This document shows, piece after piece, positions 3,521-60,355 of a stretch of 64,000 nt of DNA. The stretch is from Lunularia cruciata (lineage: Eukaryota > Streptophyta > Marchantiopsida > Lunulariales > Lunulariaceae): NCBI GenBank assembly GCA_948567375.1, contig OX419757.1:14832974-14896973 (forward strand), in the 5' to 3' direction. A program made the position numbers and the translations under genes. Within the stretch, counting starts at the first letter, position 1; every line of letters starts with the position of its first letter. A model generated the notes under the pieces. It was not told the origin of the DNA, searched no databases, and saw only the letters and a program-made list of their open reading frames with translations.

Positions 3521-4172
3521 AAGTCATGCGTATATACATCACTACTCAACACATCACTGTCAATATCACACACTATAGAAGCACAACTCACACATAAGTC
3601 ATACATGGACTCTAAAGTGCCACAATAATCAGTTTGGTTACACAACTCAAATCACACTCAATCAGATCAATACTTGATCTATCACTCAATGATCTGCCAA
3701 CAATTGGGCATTGATTACAGTCAAGCCACATCCACTCTAGCTAAGAGACTCTAGGTGATGCTTGCCAAATTTCTGTCCACTCTAGCCAAGAACTCAAAGG
3801 CTCAACAATAGAGAAGTGAGCTCTTTAGAGCTGCACTCCCAAGGTATACTCTTGATTTTGACCTAGATTTCACACCAACGGTCCCATTGATGACACACCT
3901 AACGGTACAAATGGTGCAAATGACAATAGGCTCCACCATGTAGTTGGTACCTAAAACATGAAATTTGATTGACAAAAAGTAGTCTTTGAGTAATTGCCAA
4001 AATACCTCTAACTACTATCATTGCTACTCCAATGTTCAAGCAATCTAGATGCAAAGCTACAAATGGTGTGACAATTGTTGTGCATATATACATTGCTACA
4101 TAACATACATTGCTATCAACATCAAACACTATAGAACTCACACATAAGTCATACATGGACTCTAAAGTGCCA
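3521..4172 (-). mobile_element. Element B, left (3') LTR remnant with internal repeat
   Basis: Bases 3631-4073 match 18226-18668 at about 85 percent by eye, so these are the two LTRs of B. Only part of the left LTR is recognisable. A segment of about 97 bp at 3527-3624 is repeated at 4078-4172; both copies end in AAGTGCCACA. The direct repeat CAAGGA occurs at 3516-3521 and at 18667-18672, consistent with target duplication around B. The high LTR divergence marks B as old. Exact LTR limits on this side are uncertain. Confidence 0.6.
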
Positions 4173-4187: not shown

Positions 4188-5745
4188 CTGGTGGTTAGGT
4201 CCCTCTAACTCTAGATAGCCATCTACTCCAAGTATATGGTATACCATAGTACCATCAATGTTTGGGAGGTGGCATGGTGCACAATTATGCATATGATCCT
4301 TCCAAACAACACCATCATGTCCTTCCAACACAAAGACTCCAAATGGAAAAACCTCATGCACTCTCAAGATAGTATGGCCTGTTGAAACATCAAGTGTCAT
4401 CAATGTTGTCTATTGTAGATATACATAGTCACCTAGATGAAATCAACAAATCGAGGGTCTATAACCTTCTCCTCAAATAGTAGCATAATGTAAGGTATCC
4501 TTATGCTGAGCAATTGTCAAGTTCTTATCACTCTCAAAAAGATCTCTACCCGTTGAGAATATGCGCTTACCCATATATCTGGATCATCCAAGTCCAAGAC
4601 TACAATAGAATCTTGATAAATGGCTACAAGTAAATCTAGATCTCATCCATAGAGTAGAAAGTATGGAGAGAAGGATGCTAAGGAGGCTTGCCGGCTGAAC
4701 CGGTAGCCCATGGCCAACCAAGGTAATTGGAGATCCCAATCTCCCAAGTGGCCTCTTTGCAATCCCCTCTTCACTATTTGAACCACTTTCTCTGCTAAGC
4801 CATCTGCATTAAAGTGATCTTGGGAGGTAGTTCAATGATCAATTAAAGCCTTGTCACACAAGACCTAAAACTCTCCCAAGAATTCTATATCATGATCAGT
4901 CAAAACCTCAACTTGTGCACCAAAATGATTGAGAACCTGATCCAAGAATGAGTAAGCTGTCCCTTCATTGGACCTATCAAGAAGTGCCACCAACTCAATC
5001 CACTTGGAAAAGTGCTCCACCATCACCAAAACATGCCAATTATATCTCACAATCAACGGTAAAGGTCCAGTGAAGTCCAAACTCCAACGGTAACCCAATC
5101 TCATAATCAATAATGGGTGTAATTATGGTGTAAGAGCATTGAATGATGCTCTAACTTGGTCACAAACCACACATCTGGCAACAAATTACTATACATTGGT
5201 CTACATACTGTGGCACCAATAATGATTATGGAGTAAGCTATATGTACAATTTACTCCAAAATGTCCTAGCTCCTCATGAGCATGACGGACCAACTATAGT
5301 ATTTGAGATGGAAGTGGTACTACTCTCACTCTACCATCCTCCCATACACTCAAAAGGTGTTTGCCCTCCAATCTGAACCACCTAACTCGCTGAAGGACAC
5401 GGTTTCTCTCCTTGGCCCCAACTGTGCCACCCACAACACCAATGTGAAGATAGTCCACCACTAAGACATCATCATGAAGATCTTGCTGAACTATACCACT
5501 ATCTCCAATCTTTGGATTTGTGACCTCAATAACTCCTCTTGTATGTGCTAAGAGAGATACCACTAAAGCCTTAGAAAATATACAAAGAAAGCTAGATGCA
5601 TGCCAACTTGGCACCATCTCCTCATTTGTCTCACCATGCCAATGTGCTCTGGTCTGATCTTGCTGGTTGGGATATGGTTTTCTATTCAAACCATCTGCAT
5701 CACGGTTCACCACTCCAGGTTTGTGAATAACCGCAAAATCATACT
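4188..5745 (-). pseudogene. Element B integrase
   Basis: Fossil Ty3/gypsy integrase on the minus strand. Around 4865-5110 the translation shows a catalytic-core start (RWSLDFTGPLP) and a second acidic block (LTDHDIEFLGEF). The far C-terminal part, near 4149-4403, contains CAPCHLPNIDG, a tail I associate with a plant gypsy lineage that lacks a chromodomain. The stretch 5294-5713 links integrase to RNase H. It is broken several times. No chromodomain was seen in B, which sets it apart from A, D and E. Confidence 0.75.
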
Positions 5746-5746
5746 C

Positions 5747-6085
5747 CTATAAAATTAGGGCCCATCGTGCAAGCTTTCTTGAAAGCTTGTCGGACTCCAT
5801 CAACCACTTTAGTGACTGATGATTAGTGATGAGAGTAAAGGGGTTACCAAATAGGTAACATAAAAAATGTGCTTCTGCCCAAACTGCTGCCAAGTACTCC
5901 CCCTCATATGAACTATACTTCACCTCCGCTGAATTGTTGGAGCGACTAGCATAGGCCACCACAAACTCCTTCCCCTCATCATCATGTTGAGTAAGCATTG
6001 CTCCAAGCCTCAACATACTCCAATCAGTGTGAACCTGAAATGGCCGTCCTTTGATCGGTCTCCTCAAAATAGGAGCAGATATCAA
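5747..6085 (-). pseudogene. Element B RNase H
   Basis: Minus-strand frame with the full gypsy RNase H pattern in order: FQVHTDWSMLRLGAML, then FVVAYASRS, then YSSYEGEYLAAVWA, then LITNHQSLKWLM. It lies directly upstream (in element direction) of integrase, as expected for gypsy gene order. This is one of the best-preserved parts of B. Confidence 0.85.
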
Positions 6086-6990
6086 CCTCTCCGTGAGCTC
6101 TACAAAAGCTCTCTCTTGCTCATCTCCTCAACACCACTCATGTGTAAGCTTAGTCAACTTTGTCAAGGCGTTGGCAATAGCACTAAATCCTCAAACATAT
6201 GGGCGATAGAAGTTCACCAACCCAAGGAATGCTCACACTCTACTCACATCCATAGGCCAAGGAATATGTGCAATAGCCTCCACTTTGGTATGTTGAACAC
6301 CAAGTCCTCTAGGGTAGATAGTGTGACCCAAATACTCAATCTGCTTGTGAAAGAACCTACACTTCATAGAATGTAATTTGAGTCCATGAGATCTCAACCT
6401 CTCAAACACCTCCAACAAATGTCTCTCATGCTCCTCCACAATAGTTCTATAGACCAAAATGTCATCAATATAGCACCCAGCAAAATCCAACCCAGCTAGG
6501 ATCCTATCCATGACCCTCTAGAACTCAGCACGAGCATTCTTTAACCTAGATGGTAAGAACCTCCATTGATATAACACATCCTTGCTGTGAGGATCAATAG
6601 CCTTGAATGCTATCTTGGACTTAACCTCCTCTTTGATTGGCAACTGGTGATATCCTTCTTGAAGATCCAAAGTATTGAAGACCTTTGCATGCTCAATTGT
6701 TTCAAAGATCTCCTCCGGTGTAGGCGTGGCATACCAATTAGCCCTAGTCTATTTGTTGATAGGAAAATTATCTCCACACATCTGTCTAATTGTGTAGTTT
6801 CCATGCATATCCTTCTTGGTTGGCATCACTATCACTGATGCATACTCTCCATGTGAAATCTCTACCAAACTAGCCTCAAAAAGGTCACTACTCCAGCTCT
6901 GAATCAATGTACTCTCCATATCACTATATTGATAAGGACGTCAGAAAACTGATGTATTACTAGTCAGCTCAATCCAAATACCAGGTCCTT
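6086..6990 (-). pseudogene. Element B reverse transcriptase
   Basis: Minus-strand fossil RT. The active-site block reads AGCYIDDILVY (about 6430-6485), followed by the thumb segment HSMKCRFFHKQIEYLGH. Upstream, toward 6600-6990, the palm and fingers are recognisable but interrupted several times. Order MTase - RT - RNase H - integrase is clear on this strand. Confidence 0.8.
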
Positions 6991-7790
6991 TTAGAGCACC
7001 CAAATCCTTCATACTGAAGGCAAAACAACTCATGGAGCTCCTAAAGAACCTCCAACTCTTTCTCTTTCCTCTCTTGTAAGCTTAGGTCCACGATTTGGCT
7101 CCCAAGTATCCTCTATAACTGTAGTAGGAGTGGAAGATGTGCTGATTGGCTGCTACACTAGACCCTTGGGAGCAATAGTGTCATGCTCCCAAGCACTAGA
7201 GGTCCCAACCTCAGTGTGAAAAACTCCCTCTACTCTGGCTGCAAGCTCCATACGTCCTCTAGCTACATCTCAAGTAGACCAAGAGTGTAATCCAAGTAGC
7301 CCACGCTCACTTAGATGGACTCCAAGTAGACCACTCTCCCTAGTAGCCATTGGCTATGTCCCATGAATACCTTGTCCACTTGATCCATTGCATCCCAACA
7401 TGTACTTAAATTGTCTCAATAGGCACAAGGCTCACAAGTGTCCAAGTGATGATACCTATCAAGTGCATCCTACACTACTTTGCCAGCAAGGCTTACAATC
7501 CAAGTCAAACAATTTAGGTCCATAGCTTGACCTAACACCTGATGCTTGCATGCCTCTTACACTACTAAAACAACAATGATACCAATGAAAAAGCCCATTG
7601 CCCACTCTCTCTCATTAGTGTTGGGCTCCACCAATTGCTATAATTGTGAGTTCCAAACCAGTCTAGGACCTCCTTCTTGAAAAGCATGAGAGCCTGGGAA
7701 ACTCATGAGTGTAGGAAAAGCATCTTTAGGTTGTCCAACTAGGTTCACCACTGCCATAGGTGACCTATCAACCACTACCACCATCTGAGA
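6991..7790 (-). other. Element B linker between methyltransferase-like domain and RT
   Basis: Element B sequence with no domain I can name. It lies between the C-terminal part of the methyltransferase-like region and the RT fingers. In a cytosine methyltransferase this is where the target-recognition region and motifs IX-X would be expected, but I cannot identify them in the degraded sequence. Confidence 0.4.
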
Positions 7791-8142
7791 CTAATGCTCA
7801 ACATCCAAGATGTCATCAATAATGATGTGGTCTAGTCGTTGAATCCCATCATAAGCGCACTGTAGAACTTCTCTAGGTAAGAGGTTTGTCCACCAAAGAT
7901 GAAGACAATGAGCCCGTGATCCCACTCTAGCTGCATCTAACAATATAGCAGGTCCCATCCAAGAATAGACCTGATGTGTACTTGCCACCACTTTGGTAAT
8001 AGAATCACCCATCAAAGGAATGTTCTCCAAAATGTAAGTTGGAAAAATAGATTGATGAACTTGGAGATGTCGTAGTATCCATAACATCTCCCAAAACACA
8101 CCAGAACAAGGATCTTGAAGACCCAAACCCTAACCAACACAT
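7791..8142 (-). pseudogene. Element B: C5 DNA methyltransferase-like domain, motifs VI-VIII
   Basis: Minus-strand frame of about 111 residues. It contains PTYILENIPLMGDS (about 8000-8036), matching the ENV-type motif VI of cytosine-5 DNA methyltransferases. It then shows ILLDAARVGSRAHCLHLWW (about 7880-7945), matching the motif VIII region, where DNMT3 and DRM enzymes have an AHR..R.(F/W)W(G/T)NL pattern. The other half of the domain, with motifs I, II and IV, lies at 10384-10870 on the same strand, separated by the 2.2 kb insertion. The position between protease and RT shows that it belongs to element B. It is degraded and treated as a fossil. Confidence 0.75.
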
Positions 8143-10383
8143 TGTCGTGTTGTGGTTTGCGTAGCCTGTAAAAAAGTGACTTATTAGTTTTATCTCCACA
8201 TTAGTGGGGTAGGTTGTTTGCTAGATCCACCGGATGAGATGCTGCTAGGTGAGAAATCTTTGTACATGTATGTGATTGGCCACATGGGTTACAAACTTAT
8301 CATGTTTGAGGGCTCTGATGAATAAAGATGAGGGCAAGTGGAGAGACAAGGGAGTGTTTTAGTCGAGGAGTCTCGAGGGGGAGGAGGACCTTGGGAGTGA
8401 GAGTTGTAGTAGTGCGTGAGTGGTAGAGCATCAGAGGAAGCAATTGAGCATGAGATGTCCCATGCTACCAATCTTCCACTCCCAAATCCTTTTCTCATCA
8501 AGCTTTAGATTTTGCACCATGATGGCTTATGGGACTGTTGGTGGCACGTTTTCGGGTGGTATTTGTGGAGTCGGTGACCAGAAACCTGGATCCTATTGTC
8601 CTTCTGGTGCTTACTTATGAGCATGTCTGGGATTTGAAAATATATGTACTTCTATAGTTGGGGAATGCCTAAATTTTTGCTCATAAGCTTCAAGGTGGAG
8701 TTGTGGGGTCCATTTGTCAAAAAGTAAAAAGATTAAAGGACAAATATGCAAGAGATTGGGTCCCAATAGAGAAGGCTGGAGTTTTTTGACCATTGAGGGA
8801 GTTTGGGAAGGCCATTTGGGGAACAAAGGACATGGTTGGAAAGATGAGCTGACATGACAAAATTTGAAGATATAAATCACACAATTTAAGCTAATTCTAA
8901 GAGGGATATGATAGATTGAATGAAGGGGGGTAAAATTCATACCCAAGAGCACAAAGTATGCAATTGAGGAAGCTTCTTGAAACATTTTTACCATCTGTTA
9001 GTGGGATTGGAGAGTAGACAAAGTGCTTACAGTACTTAGCACAAGAAATTTTAGTTCTAGATCAATCTCAAATCAGATCTGGTTGATTAAAGTTGAAGCT
9101 TTTGAGGTGTAAGGTGATGGAGAAGAGCTAATGATCAGGTTTGGAGTTTTGGCCACTCCCCAAGTTGTGGATCGAGATACCTTATGAAAATTAATAGTCT
9201 TGTTGTTGGTTAAAGTTTGCATCTTTGGGTGAAGGTTTCATGTGAATTCTTCAAATAGAGAATTTAGGGTCTTGGATCAAATACATCTGGGTCTATAGAG
9301 CTCACAAGTTAGTCTAGCTCAGAAATTGATCCATATCTAAAGATTGGGGTTGGATTAGGCCCTCAAACTTTACAAAGTGTTAACCAAGAGCACGACCAGC
9401 TATTGCGAAAAATTTGGTTGGCTTTGGGCTCATAGAGAGTGAGATCTGATTCAACAAGTTTTATTGAAAAGATTGTCATAAGCTCGGATGAGCATTTCTT
9501 TCTTCAATCCTAATTGAATATCAATTCTCTTACTTCTGTGACTATGATTGAGAGTTTAGATTTCCATAGTGTTTTTTGAGGATCAAGTACACATCTGATT
9601 TAGAAATCAGGGGAAAGTTGGCAAGAACCAGGGGCAAAACCCTAAAAAGGGGATTTCAAAATTAGGGTGAGAGTTGCAAAAACCTGGCAAACTTTGAGAG
9701 CTTGTCAGGGGAGTTTTAGTAATATTATTGAAGTCTTTTTTATATCATTGGAAAGGTTATCTCACAGGCTTTCCATTGAATCCTAGAATATTTGAATCCA
9801 AGCTATACATGAAGAGTTATGTTCATATGAGTTGTGCATAGTTTTCCCTATCAAGAAGACATAGGAAATCTCCACATGGAGTAGGAATTTGTTGAGATCT
9901 GAAGTACAACTTGGAGGAGACTTGGAGTACAGGTAGAAATTAGCTTGATGATAGAGCACGGAGGCTCTGAAGCTCTTTTCTGACCAAAAAGCATAGAGAG
10001 TTATTGCCCCATTCCTGTGATTGGATCCTCTCTATGCTTGCATGCTTGTTTGTACGCCCAGTTGGTTTGGATTGGTGTGCGAGTGTTGCACTTCGGTTCT
10101 TTGCTTCTAGGAGGGCTGTGTATTTCTCCTTGGTAATGTTGGAAGTGATGACCAACAGACCAAAAGTGCATGTTGTGATGACATGTTAGGTTGCCCATCA
10201 CTACCCTACTCGATAGCAAGAACATGAGTTACAAGAGTGGAGGGTTCTTACTATTAGGCAACATGTGTGTTTAGACGAGTAGTTATAGGTTTACCTTTAG
10301 CATCTAATTTTTAATCTCCACAACTAGGCACCTTGTGTGTTCCCAAAAAGAGAAAAGAAAATATGACAATATGTATGTCCCTA
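8143..10383. mobile_element. 2.2 kb insertion inside the methyltransferase-like domain (probable solo LTR)
   Basis: This 2,241-bp stretch separates two halves of one protein domain and shares no coding similarity with B. It begins TGTCGTGTTGTGG and ends GTATGTCCCTA, with ACAT on both sides (8139-8142 and 10384-10387), compatible with a short target duplication. No gag, pol, primer site or long reading frame was recognised, so a solo LTR of an unidentified family is the best reading. The ends are not a perfect TG..CA pair and the duplication is only 4 bp, so the classification is tentative. Confidence 0.45.
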
Positions 10384-10870
10384 ACATGGCCATCCAAAAA
10401 TCACCAAATGAATAGGCTCATGTTGCTCCAAATCATGCACCCCCAACAAAGAAATGTCTGCTGGTAGGGCCTTCTGGTAACCTCTAATGGCTGATATTGG
10501 TAATAACTTAGGATACCAATAGGCCAAGTGTGCCACATGATGGAGAGACTCACCTAAAAGTCTCATCTCTCTCCACATACAAGTACCCTTGTACTTGTAT
10601 ACCTGCTTGTAATATCGTAGCTAGTCCATTGGTAATCCCACCAAACAACTCCAATAGACATACCTCCTCCATTGGATACTACCAAGCAATCAGTATGGTA
10701 TCCAGAGGTATCAAGGTAATTGACTCTAGAGGCTCATCCTCACACTCATCTCCTAGTGGTGCAAAGGAAGGCTCCACTCCAAGCTTGCTGCACCAACCAA
10801 TTTGCATACTACTGCAATGCCTCCTCTGAACTCCACAAAGGAACATCCAAGGTAGATGCAACAATCCCAC
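10384..10870 (-). pseudogene. Element B: C5 DNA methyltransferase-like domain, motifs I, II and IV
   Basis: On the minus strand, 10620-10658 reads LLELFGGITNGLA, which has the FxGxG-type S-adenosylmethionine loop of motif I. At about 10566-10587 follows YLYVERD, matching motif II. At 10384-10400 comes FGWPC, matching the catalytic Pro-Cys of motif IV. These precede ENIP (motif VI) and the AHC..LWW block (motif VIII) at 7791-8142, so the order I-II-IV-VI-VIII is canonical rather than permuted as in plant DRM enzymes. Cytosine methyltransferases inside retrotransposons have been described in dinoflagellates and a charophyte alga; a land-plant gypsy example would be notable. It is a broken fossil. 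Confidence 0.75.
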
Positions 10871-10897
10871 TTGTACTCCAAATCCAAGTGACCTCCT

Positions 10898-11743
10898 CTA
10901 GTACTGGAGTATCCTTTGCATGGGCGTTCGTCTCCAATAACCCAGGCTAAGTAATAGAACCACTAAAAGTTGAAAGTAAAGCCGCCATGGTCCCAGACTA
11001 TAATGAGCCAAGACTGCCACTATTGAATCATATTGGTAGGCAACATACTCGTCCCTCACCAGATGCCAACCTGGTCTATAGGAGGCTATTTCTTCCCAAT
11101 AGTTGATATTGAAACCCATGGGGTATAACATTGCTCCTCTAACTAGCACATCATATGACTCAACTATTGTCACAATAGCTTGAGCTCTCACCACCAAGCT
11201 ATCAGTCGGGTGACCAAGCTAAACCTGGACAACAAGCTCCCCATGTGTGATGTACTGTGATGAACCAACACCTAGAGATATTTGGATCTGAAATGGACAT
11301 CTCTCCACATTGATCTTCCTTAACCCTAGACCAACAACTGCAACCTTCCTCAACATAAGGGGTTGTACATTAGAGTCAAGTAAGACCCTTTGTGGTGTAT
11401 AGACCTTCCTTGAAGGTCCCACCAAACAAAAAATCCCCATATAGTTATCCAATAGGACAACACTAGGTGTAAACCACGCTCATTCAAAGGCCGGTAACTC
11501 CTCCAATCTAACTACTATTGCTTGCCATAAACCATTGGTCATTGAGCGGATCCCATGCTCCTCAACAAAGTCAACACCACTATCAACCACCTTTTTTCTA
11601 GTAGTAGCAACCACATCATCCCTACCCTCACAAAGCGTGGCAACCAACCAAAACATTGGGGTTGGGTCAACTCCCAATGGAAACATGTCACTAGTTGAAA
11701 ACAAAGGGCAATGCATAATCAACTGAGCCGCCCTCAACATCAT
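10898..11743 (-). pseudogene. Element B retropepsin region
   Basis: Minus-strand fossil. The frame at 11219-11452 contains RVLLDSNVQPLML, a degraded retroviral-type aspartic protease active-site region. It is followed by ITHGELVVQV and, at 10898-11197, by VRGAMLYPMGFNINYWEE. The upstream frame at 11480-11743 (TPMFWLVATLCEGRDDVV) appears to be the segment linking gag to the protease. Gene order is therefore gag - protease - methyltransferase-like - RT - RNase H - integrase. Confidence 0.65.
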
Positions 11744-13400
11744 GCTCGACTCAGTCTATGTAGTAGCAGATGGTTGACTAGCAAGTGGTCCATCATGCAC
11801 CCCATCACTACCTACCACACTTGCACTAGGACGTCTAGGAACCATGGATGTTGTTTGAAATACCTCAAAGAGTGTGAAAGATTGGAGAAGTCTAACATGT
11901 CTCTTGACCTCTCCTCTTTGTGGTTCCAACTCCATTGATGCTCCTCTAGGCTCTGGAGCATATTGCACTCCTAGTCACTACTATAGATGCATCCACCTGT
12001 GCTGCTCCCCACATGAAGTTCAAAGCATCTCTATCACTAGCATATAAGGTGGAAGCCTCATCATCCAAATCTGATCTCCTTTGAGCAATGGCCATACTAG
12101 CCAATCTTTGGTCCAATTGCTCAATCCAAGTAGCCATAGTTGTATCAAAAGTAAGGGCAGGTATTGCACCCCTACTAGGTGTAGATCCTCTACCACAACC
12201 TCTACCACCTCGTCGTCCATGAACTAGAGCTCCTCTACTATCTGCAATAGCAGCCCTACCACTCAGTAACTCTGGATGTAGGTCAAAGCACCAATCACTA
12301 GTGTGACCAAATATGTGGCAATGCTTACACTACCTCTGTGTTGGTAATGATGCACCAAAGGTATCAAGTTTGCTGCCCTGAGTGCACTCTCTCTTGTGAT
12401 GAGGTCCACCACAAGTCCAACAAGCAACACCACTACTCACTGGTTGTTGTTGACCCAAAAATGAAGGTAAGGGTCTAACTACAATAGGCCCTCCACTCGC
12501 TCCATAGGACCTAGGCTGTCCATCCATCCTAACCAATTGGATGTTGGTGCACTCTGCTACACTATAGAAGAAGTCACAGATGTGGATGAGGTCTCCCTAC
12601 CAAATCCAAATGTCACCACTTGCTCCACCACCATGTTGCACTCAATATGCTCAACCAAACCAAGGATCACTGCCAAAGTAGGTGAAGTAGCTTGTGACAA
12701 CATAGCATCACAAACTCTATGTTGCAACTCCCTATCCAATATCCCATACCAAAACTAGACTGCTTGGGCCTCAATAACTCCCTAAGTGAAACTGATCAAC
12801 TGCCTCATGCGAGTGTATGCCTTGTGTAGGCTCTCTCCAGCCTTTTGTTGGAACTCTTGCATGCTCCTCAACTTGTCAATCCGTACTCCATGGTAGTTCT
12901 ACCTCAAACACTAAAAGAATTCCACCATGGGGTTAAACCACAATACTATACCACCTCTTGTAGCGGTACCTCCACTCGTAGTAGCACTATCTCCAGTTAG
13001 TGCACCTCCACTAGCTCCACCAATGCTACTTGAGATAGAACTTGTGAGTACAATAGATCTACCCCTAGAAAATGAGCTAAAGTAATGGAGATATAGTTTG
13101 GAGACCAATACTATCTCCGTAGCTTGATCTCCTCCAAGTGAGCTCTCTTGAACTCATGGTAGTTGTCCATCGGTGGACCTTCCAAATGCTGAAACAAGCA
13201 CTTTCATGCCATGAAGGGTGTGAACAAAATTAGGTTCCACATCTACTATAAATCACATCAACTATCAAACTTCTAGATGAAGTCATCTAACTCAATGGTA
13301 CCCACTATACCAAATTACGCTTGGGACCTTTGGAGGCCCCATAAATCTAGTCCATGACCCACAATAACGATGTAGACACAACAAGTGCACTCTCAACTAG
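11744..13400 (-). pseudogene. Element B gag with zinc knuckle
   Basis: Minus-strand fossil gag. A zinc knuckle, CWTCGGPHHKREC, is visible at about 12375-12425 (C-x2-C-x3-H-x4-C). Upstream parts of the polyprotein (12557-13108) include Ser/Thr/Gly-rich stretches and a segment like IVLWFNPMVEFF. The region is broken several times. The knuckle and its position between leader and protease support the gag call. Confidence 0.65.
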
Positions 13401-13987: not shown

Positions 13988-14900
13988 TGTGACAACCCAA
14001 AAAATATCACTTTTGTGGTAATCGGGTAAGTAAAGTTTGTTCCCGTAGAGATACAAGTCAAAAATTACCAAATACAAAGTCAAATAGTAACATGTAGTTC
14101 TTCTTGATTTCTTCTTTAATCTCTCAGGTAGAAACTAAACCTAGAAGAGAGTAACAAGCATTGATCCGTAGTCTTGTCACAAATTAACACTTTGTAATCA
14201 CAACTCCATCAAATATTTCCAAACAATCTTGATTGTGATGATTCAGGCTCTCCCGAAAACGGCACTTCATTGCAAAATGACTTTGCCTCAGAATTGTGTT
14301 CCACCCCTCCATTGAAGGCACAACTTCCTCAATCAAAATTGCTTCACATCAACTTTGCTTTGCACTCACAAATGTAGAATACTACCAACACTACAATTCC
14401 TCTCAGATCTGTCAAGGCATTGCTTCGATTGCACTTCACTCAAGATCAAACACACAGAATGAAGATCAAGGCTACGGAATCCAACATCCAACAAGCACAC
14501 TGACTTGCACTTCAAATTTCTCCACACACTCACAAACATAGACACAAAGTTGATACTCAGAATCAAGCTTAAGCGATGAGCACTATTTTATAGCACTTCG
14601 CTTTATCTATTCTCAGAAATAGTGAGCACTAAACAACATGATACTACAAATGCCACTCTTAAATAGTGAAGCAATCAACAGTTATCTTCCTAATGCACCT
14701 CTTCCTAACAACTCTACAAACCTGTAGATCCAAAACGACAATGCATCTCTTCATATCTGCTTATTCAAATCTCAAATCGGTTACTAATCCGATCCGATGT
14801 CTACTTCTTCCTCGGCTTTCAAACCCGATCCCAAAGTAATTTTACTTCCTACTACTCTGTCCTCATGTTTCACAACTACTAAGTCTTCTACTAAATCTAA

Positions 14901-15716
14901 CTATTCCCTTTCCTGATCTGAAATTTCACTAGTGGGTAATCTATCTAACTCTTTATCTCCCAACCCACTCTTCTCTAATGTCTCCACTGGTAACTCTGAA
15001 GACATTTGCACTCCTACTTCATCTACTTTGGGTTTGGCTCTAGCGTCTTTCCGAAGTTTGTCTATATCTAATTTCACTAAGTCTAATCTAATTGCGATAT
15101 TATCTTCTACCTCTAGTATTTTCCTATCTACATGAGTCCTGAGACTAATCAACAGTGTGTTCAAATCTGTGTCCTTCGCCTGTCTCCTCCTTGTCTCCTG
15201 CACCAATAACTTCAACTTGTGCAGCCACGTCTCTTCAATCTGAATGCTAGCCTCTGTACTTAACATCACGTTCATTCTGAGGAAGATCTCCTTCAATGGC
15301 TCCAATCTCATCTTCCTTTCATGCTCCCGATCTGCAAGCCAATCCTCTCTGTACATTGCCAATTCCGCTTCAAACTCGGCTTTCACCGTTTCTTTCTCCT
15401 TCTCCTTCTGCTCAATCTTCTCCTCTTGATTACGAAGTAACTCTCGTAATCTCTCTTCTTCCCTATATCGTAATGCCAACTCCCTTTGCCAAAGTTGCTT
15501 CTTCTCTTCTACACTCTCCATCACTCTATCAAGCTCTTGTTCCTTCATTGCTACCCTCGCCATAGCATAGATAAGTTCTAATCTTGAATCAACAAACTGT
15601 TGCTTCAAGATTTCATACTCTGCTACTTGTCTTTCCCTTGCTATGCCACTCTTCTTAACAAGTTCCTCTTGATACATCACTTCTCTCTTCAAGTCTTCAA
15701 TTACTTGACCCTGCAC
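14901..15716 (-). pseudogene. Alpha2 coiled-coil protein, C-terminal part
   Basis: A 271-residue frame almost wholly helical and charged, with long heptad-like stretches such as EEERLRELLRNQEEKIEQKE, indicating an extended coiled coil over roughly residues 1-200. The tail (VQMSSELPVETLEKSG, then DKELDRLPTS) is also present in the short alpha elements. I recognise no enzyme motif and no known family. Its recurrence in transposed copies shows that it belongs to the element, not to the host locus. Confidence 0.7.
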
Positions 15717-15755
15717 TACTGCCTCCCCTCGTAGTACTTCCCTTTCCTCCTCACC

Positions 15756-16664
15756 TCAGGTTATAATCTTCTTCAACCCCGAGTTCTCTTCTTCTAATCT
15801 TGATAACACCTGCAAGACAGTCTTCACCTCTAGACATGTCGACTGCATCTCCTTCTTCCTGAGCTCCAATTTCACCAACAATGGACACACAATCTCCCGC
15901 AAGTACTCCACTCCATTGCTCGCAACTACTTCCTCATTCATAGCAATCTCCTTCCTTACTTCTTGTTCACCCGATACTCGCCTTTGTCTCTGCAGTCTTT
16001 GTATCAGAATCGACGCCTCACTCCCCGAGCTTTCATTCACTTCTTCCTTTGCCTTACTTGGACCCGCTTCACACTTCACCTTGTGTCTTGAACAAACTCC
16101 TCTTTGGATTGCAGACTTCTTCTCCTCGACCTTAGGTATCTTGTCCTCCAACTTCTCATTATCTTCTAGCTCGAGCTCCACTCGAACTTCTTCTTCTTCT
16201 ACCGTAGTGGCTGATACCGACGTCATCTCTCCACCTTCATCATTGTTGCTACTTGTATCTCCACTTTGCAGCGTAAGCTCCGGTTCTTCCTTGCGTTCCG
16301 AGTCTTCGTCTTCTGATGCAATCACCACCATGCCTCTCCTCGGGTTTCCTCTCCTAGTCTTTTGAGGTCTTGTCTTGTGTTTGGCTTCTCCTTGCCAACT
16401 CCGCTTCTTCAACTTTGGAGTACTCACTTCTATCTCTACGCTCTTCCCCGTCTTTGCGTAGTACTCATCCGTGCTCCGGATTTGAAGAATGTATTGTTGC
16501 TCTTCCACATCGACTTCTCTTCTCAAGTCGAGATGGAAGTGAGACACCATTTGATTTTGCTCCGCCAAGTTGAGAAAATTCAACCCAAGGTAAAAGTGTG
16601 CTGCAAATGGCACGATGTAATGTGGAGGCGACTTATCCTGCAAATTCCACACCATTTGTCTCAT
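15756..16664 (-). pseudogene. Alpha2 protein, central part with acidic linker
   Basis: A 302-residue frame. Residues 1-90 are a mixed hydrophobic region (MRQMVWNLQDKSPPHYIVPF, then LRREVDVEEQQYILQIRSTD) that is conserved in alpha4 and may be a folded domain. Residues 90-210 are a Lys/Arg then Glu/Asp/Ser-rich low-complexity linker (EEPELTLQSGDTSS). Residues 230-302 begin the coiled coil. No family assigned; gag-like and captured-host-gene origins both remain possible. Confidence 0.65.
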
Positions 16665-16685
16665 TCTTCCATGGAAGCACCTCGC

Positions 16686-17327
16686 CTAGTTGATCGGTTC
16701 TCTTGCAAATAGCTTATGGAAGAACACCACTTGGTGTTTCATCACATAAGTTGTTCTCTTTGGCTTCAAGATCGCCATGAGAGCACTCACGATCCCTCTC
16801 TTCATTGGATCCTTGTAACTCTCAACCTTATACCCATTCTTTGTTCTCTTTGAAGAGAGAGCATCTCTCACTTCTTGAGTCTCTTCTGCTACTTCTCCCT
16901 TACCCAAGAATGTGGCACCCTGCTCTATGCCTGCTTCTCTCTTGAGTACTAATCTCCAATCTGACTCTGTCCAGCAAGCCAGATTTCCTTTCTTCCCCTC
17001 TTCCTCGGGGCCATCAAGACACTTGCTCTCGATTATCTCGGTCATGAAGCCTGGAAAACTGACATTCTAGTTCCATGCCAAGAACGTAATCCAAAGTCGG
17101 CTGAAGACTTTGATTCTTGCGATCACGTCTAGTCTCCGAATTGCATGATTCCTCACTGCAAATTTGGAGTTCTTCTTTCCTCCTCCCATCTCTCCTACTT
17201 TCTCAATGTCTCTCGGTTTCACTCTCTCAACTTCTCCTCTACATACTAGCGCATCTTCAACTCTATTTCCCTTCCCACAATCACCTGCAGGCGGACTTCT
17301 CAACAACAAAGGAAAATTGCTCGACAT
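16686..17327 (-). pseudogene. Alpha2 protein, N-terminal part
   Basis: Two frames (17327-17067 and 17045-16686) that begin MSSNFPLLLRSPPAGD and continue with KKNSKFAVRNHAIRRLDVIA, then GIVSALMAILKPKRTTYVMK and FFHKLFAREPIN. The same sequence order is found in alpha4 at 34967-35600. The first ATG lies about 415 bases inside the element end, which is a plausible leader. Function unknown. Confidence 0.6.
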
Positions 17328-17742
17328 TGCTTTGTCGTGAGCCCAATTTTTATAGAGTCACGCTTTCTTTGTCTCTCTTCAATTTGAGTTTCTACCAAGA
17401 AATCACACCTCTTGCATGCGCCTATCATTGTCAATCGTACTTCACACTTATGGGCCTCTGGTTTTGAACGGTCCCTTCTTGAATTTCTTGCCCCGATGAA
17501 AGGTTGTTAGACTGTCTTTGCCTCGGGTTGAGCTCCCCCCGATACAAAGATTCCTTACTTTGGGTTGTATGCTGACAGGGCATTTCTGAGTACTTTGCCT
17601 TATGACCCAAAGTCACTTTACTTCGGGTTTCATCCCAAAGACTCTTTTCTTCACCTTCTTTGGCCATACAGGCGTAATCCGACTTCTCTATACACTTCTT
17701 CTTCTTTATTTTGAAAATAAAAATAAAAATGTGGGTACCATA

Positions 17743-18666
17743 GAAGACCTATCTACTATCCTAAGTTAGCGGATCATTGGAGAATGTGATCAAAGTTCTT
17801 CTCACCAAAATCTGACATAAACCCTTCACAAAATCTGACATAAATCTGACATAAATCCCTAAATTTGGTTGACTGCTAAATCCATTGCTAACTCTTCACT
17901 CGAGCCAAATTGGAAAAGTTGGTTTTATCCAATCTCTAATTCATGGGAGTGGGTTCCCAACTCCACCTTCATTTTCACTTTCTAAGCTCAACTTGCACTA
18001 GATAGGTCTTATGTTCACCTCTTGAGCTCAAAATCACAACTACCATTTGAAATGGATTCTCTTTGGCTCCAAATTTGGCCAACACTTTTGCACACAGTCA
18101 GTCCCAAGGAAATCAGAACTGCAATCTAGGTACCACAATCCACCGGCCTTGGAGATACTACCACCACCACCACTCTTAGTTCCTACACTCGATTTCCCTC
18201 CTACTCTCACTTCTCTATTGTAATCAATTCAGTTATACAACTTGAATCACACTCAATAAGATCAGTACTTGATCTATTACCCAATGATCTACCAGAAATT
18301 AGGCACTAATTATAGTCAAGCCACACCCACTCTAGATGAGAGACTCTAGGTGATGCTTGTCGGCTTTCTGTCCACTCTAGCCAAGAACTCAAAGGCTAAA
18401 CAATAGAGAAGTGAGCTCTCTGGAGCTACACTTCCAAGGAATACTCCTGATTTTGCCCTAGGTCTCATACCAATGGTCCCATTGAAGGCACACCTGATGG
18501 TGCAAATGGTGCAAGTGATAGTGTGCCCCACCATGTAGTTAGTACACAAAACATGAAATCTGGCTAACAAAGAGTAGTCTTCGAGTTACTGCCAAAATAC
18601 CTCTAACTACTATTAGGGCTACTCTAGTGTTTGAGCAATCTAGATATGAAGCTACAAATGGCATGA
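17743..18666 (-). mobile_element. Element B right (5') LTR, main part
   Basis: Continuation of the right LTR after alpha2. The right part, from 18226, matches the left LTR remnant at 3631-4073 at about 85 percent by eye. The LTR ends at the direct repeat CAAGGA (18667-18672), after which chromovirus A resumes. A short (ACC)n-like run occurs near 18160-18175. Confidence 0.65.
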
Positions 18667-20006
18667 CAAGGATGATCTTTGACTTGTGCACCTCTAAGAA
18701 GCCCATGACTTACCAATTGCTAGTCACATGGGTGTGGACAAGACCTTGGGTATACTTCAATGCCAATGGTGGTGACCAACATGACACAAGATGTTCAAGA
18801 GTTTGTTCAATTATATGAGAGCTACCAACCCAAAAAAGCTAGAAACTAGAAACCAAGTGGACCCCTTCAACCACTCCCCATTCCATATGCTTGATAGGAA
18901 CACATGAGCTTGGATCTCATCACGTCTTTGCCCAAGATGAAGCAAGGTCACACAAAATGGTGATGTTTATGGATAAGCTTAGTAATCAAATCCATTGGCA
19001 CCAACCTTTCATACCATGGATGCTCTAACATTGGCATAGATCTACTTCAACAACATCTTCAAGCATCATGGTATGCTTTGTGTACTCATCTCCGACCGTG
19101 ATCCTCAATTCATTGGGAAATTTTGGTAAGCACTCTTCTAGATACTTGGCACAAAGCTTGCTTTATCCATCGCCTATCATCCTCAAATTGATGGAAAAAT
19201 TGAATGTGCAAATCGCACCTTGGAAGATATGCTTCATGTCTTAGTCAATATCCACCGTACCAATTAGGATGAACGTCTTGTAGCTTTGGAGTTTGCATAC
19301 AATAATTCCAAGTAGGCAAGCATTGGATTCTCTCCTTTCTTCCTCAATTTTGGCTAAGATCCACTTGTTCTAGATTCCCTTCTTACTCCTTCTCCATCTC
19401 ATGTCCCTCATACTTCCGCCTTCTTGACCACCATATCCCAATCCCTCCAACAAGCCATATCTCATCTCCTTGTTGCTCAAAATCAACAAAAAAAATATGC
19501 AGACCTCCATTATTGTGATTTCACATTTCAAGTCAATGATAAGGTCATGCTTTCCTCTAGTAACCTACTCCTCTCACTGGATACCCAAGTTAATAAACTT
19601 GCCCCAATTGGATAGGACTCGGTGAAGTTGCCCAAATCATCTCTCATGTTGTTTATCAACTTGCCTTGCCTTGTCATATGTGTATCCACCCTATCTTTCA
19701 TATTTCCAAGCTGAAACCCTTTGTTCCTAACCCATCTTCTTTTTCTTCTTGTGTCCAACCTCCTCCTCCTCCTCCTCCTGTCCCTATCAATGATCGTGAG
19801 GAGTACAAAGTTGATTGTCTCCTTGCACATCACCACATTCAACAAGGCCACCAACAACATATGGAGTATAAGGTCTTTTGGAAGGGTATCCCCTTCATGA
19901 TGCCACATGGGAACCTCTCTCTCATCTCTAGATTTCACAAATGGCCATCTAGGAGTTTGAAGCTCCAATGGCAACAAGGACGTCACCAACTAATGGTAGG
20001 GGAATA
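18667..20006 (+). mobile_element. Chromovirus A, integrase and chromodomain
   Basis: Final coding part of element A. Integrase sequence runs from the residue of the zinc-binding region (18667 on) to about 19600 and is heavily broken. At 19790-19960 the plus strand encodes a chromodomain: EEYKVDCLLAHHHIQQGH then MEYKVFWKGIPF, the usual (Y)KVxWKG(Y)P core. That marks A as a chromovirus; the family chromodomain is thought to direct integration to heterochromatin. A proline run (PPPPPPP) precedes it. The purine tract GGTAGGGGAA near 19996-20004 is the likely polypurine tract. Confidence 0.75.
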
Positions 20007-20139: not shown

Positions 20140-20700
20140 TGTAATACTCCAAGGACAAGAGAACTCTACAAGAGAGGAAACACGAGTTTCACAATATTGA
20201 TGTGCATTTGCTCTTTATTATATATCAAGAGGACCCCCCCCCCCCAAAGAAGCTCTACCCTTGGATCAGATGCATGGATTGGTGACATGTAAGCAAGCTC
20301 CACCTTAGGTTAGTTTCCTGGATGGGTGATATGTCAGTCCTTGTTCTACTAGTTCATCATATAGGTTTGACCAAAGGGAATCTTCTTGTAGGAAGCTCAA
20401 AATCATGTAGGTGAGGTACTATTGGAAAGCTCTTGATGAGACAAATCATGGGAGGAAGAAGGTATGGTTTTTTCCAAAGGAGGGAAAATCTTGCTATTTT
20501 TGAGGCCTAATTCATCCATTTACGCCTCCAAAATTAGCTCTAGAGTTTTTAGGCTATTTTTGATTTTTGCCCTTTTAGTAGGAGTACTCTTTTGGTGATG
20601 CCTCTATCTGATCTAGTTAGCCCATCATACACAACGTCCTTCTAGATATTACCAAGCTAATTTTCACCTCTAGATAATCTATCTAGCTATTGGTATTACA
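20140..20700 (-). mobile_element. Element D, left (3') LTR
   Basis: Starts TGTAATACTCCAAGG and ends TTGGTATTACA, matching the LTR of E at 60356-61094 and, inverted, the solo LTR at 61402-62127. It contains a run of 12 C at 20234-20245. Because D is on the minus strand this is its 3' LTR; it lies within the 3' LTR of chromovirus A. Confidence 0.8.
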
Positions 20701-33976: not shown

Positions 33977-34554
33977 GGGATGCATGCTAGGGAGAGGAAG
34001 GCCATTGCAGCAAGATCTAGACCTTATACAATGGTGGAGGATATTCTTTTTCACCAAGGAGCAGATGGTCTACTTCAAAGAGAAGTGGGTAAGGAAGAGT
34101 CTATCCTACTTATAAAGGAGTTTCATGAAGGTTTGTGTGTGGAGGATACTTTGCAGGAAAGGTGATTGCTTTCAAGATTCTAGATGCAAGTTACCATTGG
34201 AGAGTGATTTTCAAGGATTGTCTTGATTATTGCAAAACTTGTCATGTTTGTCAAGCTTTTGCTAGGAAGTCTACATCCACTCCACCACTTAGATCAATTC
34301 CATTGCTAGGACCTTTTGAGAAGTGGGGAATTGATTTTGTAGGTCCTCTCAATAGAACACCAAGAACAATCGGTACATTGTTGTAGTTGTTGATTATCTT
34401 ACCAAGTGGGTTGAGGCTAGACTATTGAGGGACAAGAATGAAGTTGGTAGATTTCTTTATGAACGCATTATCACTAGATTTGAATGCTCTTTGGAGTTGG
34501 TTTTTGATAAAGGAGGAGAGTTTACAAGAAGCATTACTACAGCCATGCTACAAC
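33977..34554 (+). pseudogene. Element C2 integrase, N-terminal part
   Basis: Zinc-binding region with YHWRVIFKDCLDYCKTCHVC, then the catalytic-core start EKWGIDFVGPLNR. The element is interrupted by alpha4 at 34555 within the core, and integrase sequence resumes at 38335. Confidence 0.85.
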
Positions 34555-37500
34555 TGTGGTACCCACATTTTTTGTTTTTTTCAAAATAAAGAAGAAGAAG
34601 TGTATAGAGAAGTCGGATTGCGCCTGTCTGGCCAAAGAAGGCAAAGAAAAGAGTCTTTGGGATGAAACCCGAAGTAAAGTGACTTTGGGTCATAAGGTGA
34701 AGTACTCGGAGATGCCTTGTCAGCATACAATCCGAAGTAAGGAGTCTTTGTATTGGGGGAGCTCAACCCAAGGCAAAGTCTGTCTAACACCTTCCGTTGG
34801 GGCGAGAAATTCAAGAAAGGACCGTTCAAAAACCAGCGGCCCATACGCGCAAAGTATGATTGACAGTGATAGGTGTATGCAAGAGGTGTGATTTCTTGGT
34901 AGAAACTCAAAGTGAAGAGAGATGAAGAAAGTGCAACTTTATAAAAATTGAGCTTGCAACAAAGCAATGTCAAGCAATTTTCCTTCGCCATTGAGAAGTC
35001 ATCCTTTAGGTGATCGTGGGAAGGAAAATAGAGTTGGCGACGCGCTAGTGTGTAAGGGAGAAGTTGCAAGAGTGAAACCGAGAGACAGTGAGAAAGCAGG
35101 AGAGATGGGAGGAGGAAAGAAGAACTCCAAATTTGTAGTGAGGAATCATGCAATTCAAAGCTTAGATGTAATTGCAAGAATAGAAGTCTTGAGCCGACTT
35201 CGGATTACATTCTTGGCATGGAACTAGAATGTTAGTTTTCTAGGTTTCATGACTGAGATCATCAAGAGCAAGTGTCTCAATGGACCCCAAGGAAGAAGGG
35301 AAGAGAGGAAATCTGGCTAGCTGGACAAAGTCGGATTGGAAATTAGTACTCGAGAAGGAAGCAGGCACGGAGCAGGGTGCCACATTCTTGGGGAAGGGAG
35401 AGATAGCCGGGGAAACCCAAGAAGTGAGGGATGCATTCTTGTCAAAGCGGACAAAGAATAGGTCCAAGTGGAGAGCTACAAAGATCCTATCAAGAGGGGA
35501 ATTGTGAGTGCTCTGATGGCAATCTTGAAGCCGGAGAGAACAACCTATGTGATGAAACACCAAGCGGTGTTCTTTCACAAATTGTTTGCAGGAGAACCAA
35601 TTAATTCGGCGAGGTGTTTCCATGGGAGAATGCAACAAATGGTGTGGAATCTACAAGATAAATTGCCTCCACATTACATCGTGCCGTTTGCAGCTCATTT
35701 CTACTTCGGGTTGAATTTGCTGAACTTGGCGGAGCAAACTCAGATGGTGTCACATTTCCATCCTGATTTGAGAAGGGAAGTCGTTGTAGAGGAGTAGCAG
35801 TACATCTTACAAATCAGAAGCACCGACAAGTACTACAAGAAGACGGGGAAGAATGTGGAGATAAAAGTGAATATTCCAAAATTGAAGAAGCGAAGTCGGC
35901 AAAGCAAAGTCGGCAAGGCAAAGCCGAAGACAAGACAAGACCTCGGAAGACCAGGAGAGGAAACCCGAGGTGAGGCATGGTAGTGATCGAGTCGGAAGAT
36001 GAAGACTCGGAAGGTGAAGCCGAGTGCAAGACCAAAGACTCGGAACACGAGGAGGAGCCTGAGCTAACGCTACAGAGTGGAGATACGAGTAGCGACAGCG
36101 ATGAAGGAGGAGAAATGACATTGGGGCCAGCTGCTGCAAAGGAGGAGGAAGAAGTGTAGGCAGAGACTGAGGCCGAGGACAACACAAAGTTGGAAGATGA
36201 GGTACCCGAGGCTGAAGAGAAGAAGATTGCAGTTCAGAGGGGAGTCCGCTTGAGACGTAGGGCAAAGTGTGATGCAGGTCCAAGTAACATGAAAGAAGAA
36301 ATAAACAAAAGCTCAAGAAGCAAGGCGTCTGTTCCGATACGAAGACTGCAGAGAAGAAGGTGAGTATTGGATGAACACGAAGTACAAAGAGAAGTTGCTA
36401 CGCAAGAGGAGGTAGTAGTGAGCGATGGAATCGAGTACCTGCGGGAGGTGGTGTGTCCTTTGTTGGTGAAGTTAGAACACAAGAAGAAGCAGATGCAATC
36501 AAAGTGTCCGGAGGTGAAGACTGTGTTGCAAGTCTTAGCGCGGTTAGAAGAAGAGAACTCGGAGTTGAAGAAAATCATAACCCAAGGAGAGGAGGAAAGT
36601 GAAGTACTGCGAGCGGAGGCAATAGTAAAGACTCAGGTAATTGAAGACCTGAAGAGAGAATTGAGATATCGAGAAGAGCTCGTTAAGAAGAGTGACATAG
36701 CAAGGGAAAGGCAAGTAGCAAAATATGAGATCTTGAAGCAACAGTTTGCTGATTCAAGAGTAGAACTTATCCATGCTATGGTGAGAGTAGCAGCAAAGGA
36801 TCAAGAGCTCAATAGGGTGATGTAGAGTGTAGACGAGAAGAAGCAGCTCTGGCAAAGAGAGAGTTAGCAGCACGATATAGGGAAGAAGAAAGATTACAAG
36901 AGTTACTTCATAATCAGGAGGAGAAGGTTGTACAGAAGGAGAAGGAGAAGGAAATGGTGAAAGCCGAGTTTGAAGTAGAGTTGGCAATGTACATGGAGGA
37001 TTGGCTTGCAGATTGAGAGTGAGAAAGGAAGATGCGATTGGAGCCATTGAAGGAGATAGTCCTCAGGATGAACGCAATGCTGAGTACATAAGCCAATGTT
37101 CAAATTGAAGAAACGCGGCTGCACGAGTTGAAATTGTTGATGCAAGAGACGAGGCAAAGACAAGCAAAAGATAGAGATTTGAACGCGCTGCTGATAAGTC
37201 TCAAGACTTGTGTAGATAGGAAGATCTTAGAGGTAGAAGACAATATTGTGATTAGATTAGATTTAGTGAAATTAGAGATAGATAAACTTTGGAAGGATGT
37301 TAGAGCCAAACCCCAAAGTAGATAACATAGGAGTGCAGATGTCTTCGGAGTTACCATCAGAGGCATTAGAGAAGAGTGGGTCGAGAGATAAAGGATTAGA
37401 AGGGTTACCCACTAGTGGAATTTGAGATCAGAGAATTGATGGATCTGGTAGAAGAAGTAGAAGATATGAAACCCGAGGACAGAGTAGTAGGAAGTAAAAT

Positions 37501-38334
37501 TACTTCGGGATCGGGTTTGAAAGCCAATGACAAAGTAGACATCGGATCGGATTAGTAATAGTTTTGAGATATGAAGAGGTGCATTATTATTTTGGATTTG
37601 CAGGTTAGAAAAGTTGTTGTAGAACGGTATAGTTGTTAGAACTGTCGAGTTGTTCACTACTTAAGAGTGGCATTCGCAGCAAATGTTGTTCAGTGCTCAT
37701 AATTTTTGAGAATAGATAAAGCAAAGTGTTGTGAAGCAGTGCTTGTCTTTTGAGCTTGATTCTGAGTATCAAATTTGTGATTGTGTTTGTGAGTGTTTGA
37801 AGAAATTTGAAGTGCAAGTCAGAGTGCTTGTTGGATGTTGGATTCCATAGCCTTGATCTTCATTCTATGTGTTTGATCCTGAGTGAAGTGCAATCGAAGC
37901 AATGCCTTGACATATCTGAGAGGAATTGTAGTGTTGGTAGTATTCTGCATTTGTGAGTGCAGTGCAAAGTTGATGTGAAGCAATTTTGATCCAGGAAGTT
38001 GTGCCTTCAGTGGAAGGGTGGAATGCAATTTTGAGGTGAAGTTGTTTTGCATTGAAGTGCCATTTTTGGGAGAGCCTGAATCATCACAATCAAGATTGTT
38101 TGGAAAAAATTGAAGGAGTTGTGATTAAGGAGTGTGAATTTGTGACAAGACTATGGATCAGTGCTTGTTACTCTCTTTTAGGTGTGGTTTCTACCTGAGA
38201 GATTAAAGACGCAACATAGAAGAACTACATGTTACTATTTGACTTTGTATTTGGGCATTTCTGACTCGTATCTCTGCGGGAACGAACTCTACTTACCCGA
38301 TTACCGCAAAAGTGATATTTTCCAAGTTGTCACA
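34555..38334 (+). mobile_element. Alpha4: long coding alpha element, TSD ACAAC
   Basis: A 3,780-bp insertion with ends TGTGGTACCCACATTT and AAGTTGTCACA, flanked by ACAAC at 34550-34554 and 38335-38339; the integrase of C2 continues across it. The plus strand carries the same coding series as alpha2: N-terminal part (34967-35227), middle (35280-35797), acidic linker (about 35960-36180), coiled coil (36367-37325). This copy has more breaks than alpha2 (roughly ten). Terminal bases share TGTG..ACCC on both inverted ends, but there is no long terminal inverted repeat. Confidence 0.9.
34967..37330 (+). pseudogene. Alpha4 coiled-coil protein relic
   Basis: Frames in succession encode MSSNFPSPLRSHPLGDRGKE, KKNSKFVVRNHAIQSLDVIA, GIVSALMAILKPERTTYVMK, HYIVPFAAHFYFGLNLLNLA, an acidic linker, and a long coiled coil (EVQREVATQEEVVVSDGIEY to KILEVEDNIVIRLDLVKLEI). 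The order and spacing follow alpha2. No enzymatic motif is visible. The protein could be a structural or nucleic-acid-associated product of the element or a captured host gene. Confidence 0.65.
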
Positions 38335-56685: not shown

Positions 56686-58087
56686 GGACGTAGTCCATCA
56701 CGTTGTTGCTCATCTTGGGCCAATAGTAATGGCATTGGACTGCATCCAAGGTCTTGTCCACTCTGACATGACTTGCAATGGCCAAATCATGACATTCCGC
56801 TAGAATGGTGGTGCGTAATTTTGGGACATTTGGGATCCATAATCTGCCATAATGAAAGGTGAGTCCTTGGGTACTGGTGATGCCTTTGAATGATTGCGCT
56901 TCTACAATCTGCAGATCAATTTTTGTAGTAGCCAAAATCTTTGGCCAGAATTCAGGGTTAATCTTAACCTCTGCCACCAAGTTGTTTGCCATTGGCATGC
57001 AGGTAAATGCATCTGCAAGTTGCTTGCTACCTTCCATGTAGGTGATTGACATGTTCAAGCATTGTCGCCACTCTGCCCACCAAATCTGGCGATGAGATAG
57101 ATCCTTCTACATCTCAAGGTAGACTAGAGGTTTGTGGTCTATCTCTACTACAAATGCCTTCTTGCCCAGATAGTGCTTCCAATGCTTGGTTGCCAGAACA
57201 AAGGCCAGCTCTTCTTGTTTGGTGGTGTGGTAGTTGCGCTCTGCCGGTAACAACTTTTGAGAGAAATATGCAATTGGATGCCATCTATCATGCCACTCTT
57301 TTTGTAGGACTGCTCCTATTGCTACGCCTGATGCATCTATAGCCAACTTGATTGGTCGTTTTGGGTCATACCACTTCAAGATTGGTGCATGTAGCAAGGC
57401 GGATTTCAATTCTTGAAAGGACAACTCTTGTGCAGTTCCCTATGTCCACTTCTTCCCCTTGCCAAGTAGTGCCATTAAAGGTTGTGCAACCTTGGAGAAG
57501 TCTTTGACAAATCTATGATAGAATCCCATCAACCCCAAGAAGCTCTTGAGTTGAGTCTGATCTTCTAGGGCATGGCATCTTTGAATGCCCTCTACACTTA
57601 CTCTATGTCCCAAGTAGTCTACTTCAGACTTGCCAAACTCGCACTTTGAAATTTTGGCATACAATCGATTCTGTCTTAGAATCTGGAGGACTTCTTGTAA
57701 ATGTTGTTTGTGTTCCGTCATTGTGCTACTATATACTAAGATATCATCCAAGAAGATAATAATAGACTTATCTAAGTATAGATGAAATATGTCATTCATT
57801 AGACTCATGAAATTGGAAGGTGCATTGGTGAGGCCAAAAGGCATAACAAGATACTCGAAGTGGCCATACTTGGTTTGAAAGGCAATTTTGTACACATCCT
57901 CCTCTGCAATTTGGATTTGATTGTAACCGCTCCGCAAGTCCAATTTGGTGAAGTATCTTGCTCCATGGAGTTGATCAAACAGGTCATCTTTGCGAGGTAA
58001 GGGGTATTTGTTCTTCACTATTTGTTGATTGAGACCTTGATAGTCAATGCACATGCGCATTGTACCATCCTTCTTCTTCACAAACAA
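56686..58087 (-). pseudogene. Element E (chromovirus): integrase start, RNase H, RT
   Basis: Minus-strand gypsy pol in fair condition. The frame 57440-58087 (215 residues) is [55 protein letters not shown] and [17 protein letters not shown], then [20 protein letters not shown] and [20 protein letters not shown]. RNase H is at 57107-57424 (PIKLAIDASGVAIGAVLQ, PIAYFSQKLLPAERNYHTTK). The 56681-57058 frame is the linker and integrase zinc-binding start. Same family as D, where a chromodomain is visible. Confidence 0.9.
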
Positions 58088-60342: not shown

Positions 60343-60354
60343 GCTCTGATACCA
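60343..60354 (-). other. Primer-binding site of element E (initiator tRNA-Met)
   Basis: On the minus strand TGGTATCAGAGC, the standard complement of the 3' end of plant initiator tRNA-Met, one base from the LTR at 60356. Confidence 0.9.
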
Positions 60355-60355
60355 T

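Follow-up and report, generated by a model that had tools for sequence, protein, structure and literature searches.

Retrotransposons with their own cytosine methyltransferase

Plants silence transposons through cytosine methylation, and a mobile element equipped with a methyltransferase of the DNMT3 type turns this silencing weapon of its host into a part of its own. Such elements have been reported from dinoflagellates and a charophyte, as the first-pass annotation of the present locus had noted: the Pol protein of a gypsy element of Klebsormidium nitens (KnitGypsy-Dnmt3) carries a DNMT3, and so do dinoflagellate DIRS elements (PMC5890265). One of the latter, SymbioDIRS-Dnmt3, is reported there to methylate CG sites de novo in yeast; Marchantia is not mentioned in the main text of the paper (PMC5890265). 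According to the wording of a 2019 paper, such transposons do not occur in land plants, "such as tracheophytes" (PMC6338049). Retrotransposon DNMT3 in streptophytes is mentioned in another text, which cites a 2018 paper (PMC12344493). The main text of a survey of plant LTR retrotransposons (PMC6317226) contains no mention of a methyltransferase. Among the matches listed in our search of mostly open-access literature, there was no published description of such elements from bryophytes or from any other land plant.

The window analysed in this study, a 64-kb stretch of the Lunularia cruciata genome (64,000 nucleotides), very probably holds a decayed copy of a Ty3/gypsy family of liverworts and mosses, in which an unpermuted DNMT3-type C5 methyltransferase lies between protease and reverse transcriptase (RT). 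This family is a land-plant branch of the kind described in those dinoflagellates and that charophyte; here, too, a host tool for silencing mobile elements seems to have been acquired by one of them. Like KnitGypsy-Dnmt3, it is a multi-copy Ty3/gypsy family with an unpermuted DNMT3-type domain in Pol and with catalytic residues kept; compared by description, KnitGypsy-Dnmt3 differs in its charophyte host and its DIRS-like repeats, where the window element has an LTR-like pair (PMC5890265). SymbioDIRS-Dnmt3 and SymbioLINE-Dnmt of dinoflagellates are likewise retrotransposons with C5 methyltransferases, but they are DIRS and LINE elements rather than gypsy elements and live in distant hosts (PMC5890265). 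The bryophyte copies contradict the 2019 wording if "land plants" is read broadly, and the contradiction is limited to that reading (PMC6338049).

Structure of the element in the window

The element is a Ty3/gypsy LTR retrotransposon on the minus strand with its methyltransferase between protease and RT (Table 1). Proteins of its relatives are collinear with the window in tblastn alignments, in the order gag, protease region, spacer, methyltransferase, RT/RNase H and integrase, and the Ty3/gypsy arrangement of gag, protease, RT, RNase H and integrase is found in the window copy. Both the gypsy nature of the element and the position of the domain had been proposed from the sequence in the first-pass annotation, and both are borne out by the RVT_1 and RT_RNaseH matches of window pieces and by these collinear flanks.

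Table 1. Features of the methyltransferase-bearing element in the window.
Feature	Position	Strand	Basis
Candidate 5′ LTR, outer end undefined	18221..18669	-	449 bp matched to 3626-4074
Nested repeat between 5′ LTR and gag, foreign to the family	13988..17743		82% identical reverse-orientation copy at 34554-38334
gag region, decayed, CCHC-like knuckles	11964..13311	-	tblastn with Marchantia/Sphagnum proteins; knuckles by eye
Protease region	11063..11750	-	tblastn; active-site-like motif by eye
Spacer between protease and methyltransferase (LDVPLW in relatives)	10764..11063	-	tblastn; median identity 45.5%, n=16
Methyltransferase part 1 (motifs I, II/III, IV)	10372..10717	-	71.6 + 75.5 bits vs Marchantia P0126
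Insert splitting the methyltransferase, foreign to the family	8143..10368		2,226 bp; gap in alignment to relatives
Methyltransferase part 2 (ENIP = VI, RAHCLHLWW = VIII, on to IX-X-like end)	7485..8138	-	265 bits, 61% identity to P0126
RT + RNase H	5351..7072	-	RVT_1 5.9e-14, RT_RNaseH 1.1e-29; YIDD at 6461-6472
Integrase	4245..5116	-	rve E 1.1e-7; matches to P0144 + P0146
Candidate 3′ LTR, matched part	3626..4074	-	direct repeat of 18221-18669

Pfam support in the window pieces covers RT, RNase H and integrase, the rve score of the last (32.5 bits) lying just under the cut-off of 32.6. Long matches between the window and its relatives across RT and RNase H reach 56.0% identity for P0132, 64.2% for P0135 and 52.5% for P0147. 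The gag and protease pieces of the window match no Pfam family, and their assignment is based on similarity to the relatives and on motifs read by eye. The active-site-like LLDSGA of the relatives reads LLDSNV in the protease region of the window, and the one Pfam match for this region is a weak one to Asp_protease_2 in relative P0127, at E 0.0012 and below the curated cut-off. The two LTR-like repeats align gap-free in the same orientation with 379 of 449 bases identical (84%; K2P 0.181), and a G-run resembling a polypurine tract was recognized by eye just upstream of the 3626-4074 repeat. The exact LTR ends are not delimited, and the search for LTR features revealed no primer-binding site.

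The CpG observed/expected ratio (o/e) is 0.60 in the nested repeat compared with 0.16-0.19 in the element, which suggests that the repeat is younger than the element hosting it. Two long adjacent open reading frames (ORFs; 14901-15755 and 15756-16685) are present in this repeat, and they match no Pfam family. Together with a C[AT]G o/e of 0.61-0.63, the CpG values of the element are those to be expected if a plant transposon has long been methylated. In the window as a whole, CpG is depleted as well (o/e 0.23), and so is C[AT]G (o/e 0.52), a pattern that prolonged methylation at CG and CHG sites would be expected to leave.

The methyltransferase domain of the window copy

Read 5′ to 3′ on the minus strand, the domain begins with LLELFGG (10637-10657), YLYVERD (10565-10585) and FGWPC (10384-10398), and continues with ENIP (8016-8027) and RAHC (7905-7916), next to which LHLWW follows; in the usual nomenclature these are motifs I, II, IV, VI and VIII. 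The five motifs described in the first-pass annotation were therefore all located on the minus strand in canonical order, from 10657 down to 7905. The domain is wider than these five motifs, its part 2 continuing beyond motif VIII up to the domain end. Compared with whole bryophyte relatives, the methyltransferase pieces of the window show 61-64% identity and scores of up to 265 bits, in agreement with the internal C5 methyltransferase-like domain that had been claimed.

Part 1 consists of two high-scoring segment pairs (10717-10544 and 10548-10372) in different frames; since motifs I-II and motif IV fall in different frames, a frameshift lies near 10548. A stop codon immediately follows the Pro-Cys of FGWPC, and motifs VI and VIII are found about 2.3 kb beyond motif IV. 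The insert between the two parts ends in TGTC...GACA (TG...CA type; placed by eye) and is flanked by ATAT and ATGT, also read by eye, which may represent a target-site duplication of 4 bp in which one base differs. No long internal repeat was found within the insert (8143-10368).

With its frameshift, in-frame stops and the 2,226-bp insert within the methyltransferase, the window copy is dead. It is unable to encode the enzyme, so any effect on methylation, which the first-pass annotation had considered for the element and which fails for this copy, could be exerted only via intact relatives. A search against the C5 methyltransferase profile PF00145 had also been suggested. The three methyltransferase pieces of the window and one off-frame neighbour match no Pfam family, which for this copy is literally the outcome that the annotation had named as refuting its claim; the cause is their decay, since intact relatives do match PF00145.

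Relatives in liverworts and mosses

With the piece at 7791-8129 as query, 10 proteins with E <= 1 were obtained among 12 candidates, the best at 7e-40, with 57-65% identity. One relative, P0009, is a continuous protein of 176 residues that contains LDLFGGI, YLYVERD, GWPCQGH, ILENVP and SRAHRP in this order and matches PF00145 with E 2.8e-8 (34 bits, cut-off 22). A profile search yielded 405 proteins with E <= 1e-3 among 7994 candidates scored, and one Sphagnum troendelagicum record is among the matches listed (120 of 405). A search for long proteins recovered 26 relatives (E <= 0.01, among 6278 candidates), 19 of which are from Marchantia polymorpha, two from Sphagnum (S. troendelagicum and S. 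fallax) and two from Calypogeia fissa, alongside three further records. No relative was found in the viral and genome contig collections.

PF00145 was identified in six of the nine long relatives scanned, being absent at E <= 0.01 in P0133, P0144 and P0146, and in four of the 11 members of set A1. The gene model P0133 is without the PCQGH stretch, which is part of motif IV. P0132 and P0135 each combine PF00145, RVT_1 and RNase H, in this order, within one protein, and both have the KnitGypsy-type trait of a DNMT3-type domain within a gypsy Pol.

Judged by match midpoints, protease precedes the methyltransferase in all 23 proteins in which the two occur, RT comes after it in all seven that contain this pair, and six of the 26 long relatives have all three in order, which agrees with the place between protease and RT seen in the window. 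The long relatives were selected via the methyltransferase itself, and many are gene models, some of which skip parts; these counts are consequently silent on copies without the domain.

Some relatives among the matches listed carry the public-record name DNA (cytosine-5-)-methyltransferase, and element proteins of this kind can inflate counts of host methyltransferases in annotations. With multi-copy relatives in the model plant Marchantia polymorpha, what the element gains from its own methylase would become directly testable.

A PHD finger (PF00628, E 4.4e-9) is located after the integrase part of P0146 (Marchantia polymorpha Mp_7g09570), at residues 563-607. A PHD-like pattern occurs in one of the 149 relatives' proteins, and by eye the window copy has no room for a PHD finger between the integrase end and the G-run.

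Affiliation of the domain

Among methyltransferases of solved structure, DNMT3 is the closest to the domain of the relatives. A profile of 43 relatives retrieved 52 PDB sequences, the first 29 of which are DNMT3A/3B/3C (best E 6.4e-10), followed by DRM (4onj, E 0.0012), HaeIII, tRNA methyltransferase/DNMT2 and HhaI; no DNMT1 or CMT is named among the 52. With P0009 alone, DNMT3A/B/C again fill the first 29 of 44 places, and P0127 agrees (best E 3.6e-11). For the decayed window copy, the first piece retrieved 13 sequences, every one of them DNMT3A, at a best E of 0.56, which is not significant; no sequence was listed for the motif IV piece, and the six listed for the motif VI-VIII piece include no methyltransferase. 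The motif IX-X stretch aligns with the DNMT3A region at 3.3 bits, which is not significant alone. The domain shares its motif order with the DNMT3A/3B/3C catalytic domain, its best solved relatives by sequence, but lacks PWWP and ADD, lies within a polyprotein and has low overall identity to them.

The two AlphaFold2 models, of P0127 and P0021, reached mean pLDDT values of just 40.5 and 47.1, a low confidence. A Foldseek search with the P0021 model gave 18 matches at E <= 10, none of them at E <= 0.001 and no methyltransferase among them, an outcome that we regard as uninformative and not as evidence for another fold.

Capture of a plant DRM gene can be rejected. DRM proteins are the next-best solved relatives after DNMT3, but their motifs are permuted, with VI-X before I-IV, whereas motifs I-IV precede VI-X in both the window copy and its relatives. 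The alignments of DRM chains cover no more than motifs I-IV and lie close to the DRM C-terminal end. The unpermuted order rules out this origin, for the reason that the first-pass annotation had already given.

Conservation and possible function

The methyltransferase of the window copy is about as conserved as its RT and integrase. Median identities to the relatives, which leave out matches spanning two segments, are 62.1% for motifs I-II (n=17), 62.1% for III-IV (n=22) and 57.7% for VI-X (n=24), compared with 62.8% for RT (n=3), 66.2% for integrase (n=3) and 63.5% for the first gag part (n=14); they are 45.2% in the protease (n=6), 45.5% in the spacer (n=16) and 42.2% in the CCHC region (n=16). 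Regular expressions run over 149 relatives' proteins, and counted where the context was found, revealed the catalytic Cys of motif IV in 77 of 78 cases and the Glu-Asn of motif VI in 113 of 131; motif I was kept in 29 of 31 cases and motif VIII in 85 of 102. This pattern, which consists of protein identities rather than Ka/Ks values, fits selection on the domain in the source copies.

In intact relatives, the methyltransferase domain would be made as part of Gag-Pol and probably released by the element's own protease, and the freed domain may be a working DNA methylase of the de novo type. Its target would be DNA encountered as the element replicates and integrates, in all likelihood newly made cDNA or a fresh insertion of the element itself. 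The element might thereby set its own methylation, so that its activity is tuned or its new copies resemble host heterochromatin. We give catalytic activity in the intact relatives about an even chance, and a role in self-methylation appears doubtful, although conceivable.

Alternative explanations and origin

Chance resemblance of decayed sequence to the motifs has a negligible probability. The window's own pieces match no Pfam family and the DNMT3A matches of the first piece are not significant, as such a resemblance would have it; however, the methyltransferase part of P0126 scores 265, 75.5 and 71.6 bits at three places in the window, against a maximum of 25.8 bits (median 21.2) in 50 control windows shuffled in blocks of two bases, and natural proteins are matched at E down to 7e-40. 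Chance is excluded because the real scores lie so far above the shuffled maximum; the sole other match of this query in the window reaches 19.6 bits (E 8.4). It is also highly improbable that a fragment or retrocopy of a host DNMT3 gene landed in one element copy without becoming a family trait. Non-flowering plants do retain DNMT3 genes from which such a piece could derive (PMC6453930), but in three named genera the domain has one and the same position in gag-pol proteins of the element, and these proteins are matched by the window copy to either side of its methyltransferase. That the family keeps the domain as a structural, DNA-binding or decoy module that no longer methylates, for example by sequestering cofactors or partners of host methylases, is unlikely. 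KnitGypsy-Dnmt3, the sole gypsy-borne relative tested, produced no methylation in yeast, a result that its authors call inconclusive (PMC5890265), and the near-invariant catalytic Cys and the widely kept Glu-Asn of motif VI argue against a loss of function.

In a 40-row tree, 12 Marchantia rows stand on one side of a branch with support 100/98, and three named Sphagnum rows form a 15-row fork with 12 metagenome rows (81/78), which the window copy joins at 89/89 on a long branch and in no starred set. Taken alone, this position would plausibly fit an old moss copy, from Sphagnum or another genus. The root is unsure because the outgroup, a partial DNMT3A row, fills 43% of the columns and only seven of the 37 inner branches are starred. 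The tree suits inheritance within host lineages without proving such descent. A single gypsy lineage with a catalytically conserved DNMT3 may have existed since before the moss-liverwort split and been passed down within its hosts, a reading we put forward tentatively and at somewhat less than even chance; if true, land plants have long harboured a de novo DNA methylase that is mobile, propagates itself and is under its own selection. The same likelihood is given to a common origin of the bryophyte family and KnitGypsy-Dnmt3 through a single acquisition in an ancestral streptophyte; the alternatives are independent captures or a horizontal spread among bryophytes at a later time. The same type of domain sits in the Pol of a gypsy element in both (PMC5890265), and the Marchantia branch and the Sphagnum fork are as vertical descent would give. 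Against it, no Klebsormidium protein is present in the 26 long relatives or among the matches listed (120 of 405), the repeats of KnitGypsy-Dnmt3 are called DIRS-like (PMC5890265) whereas the window has an ordinary direct-repeat pair, and few inner branches of the tree are starred.

Five metagenome methyltransferase proteins (P0066, P0076, P0089, P0096 and P0097) form a clade of their own (100/99).

Other features of the window

No Rfam match and no ARAGORN gene (bacterial code) were obtained in the window. A second gypsy-like element is located at 57440-58594; read by eye, its RT ORF adjoins an apparent protease ORF directly and leaves no methyltransferase in between. Copies of a recurring repeat, about 0.7-1 kb long, have a common end point and end near 1051, 13988, 31602, 38334, 41246, 46949 and 55509; this is perhaps an LTR family with many nested or solo copies. 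A satellite-like cluster of short direct and inverted repeats extends over 60354-63119, and some of these repeats are related to the sequence at 20140-20694.
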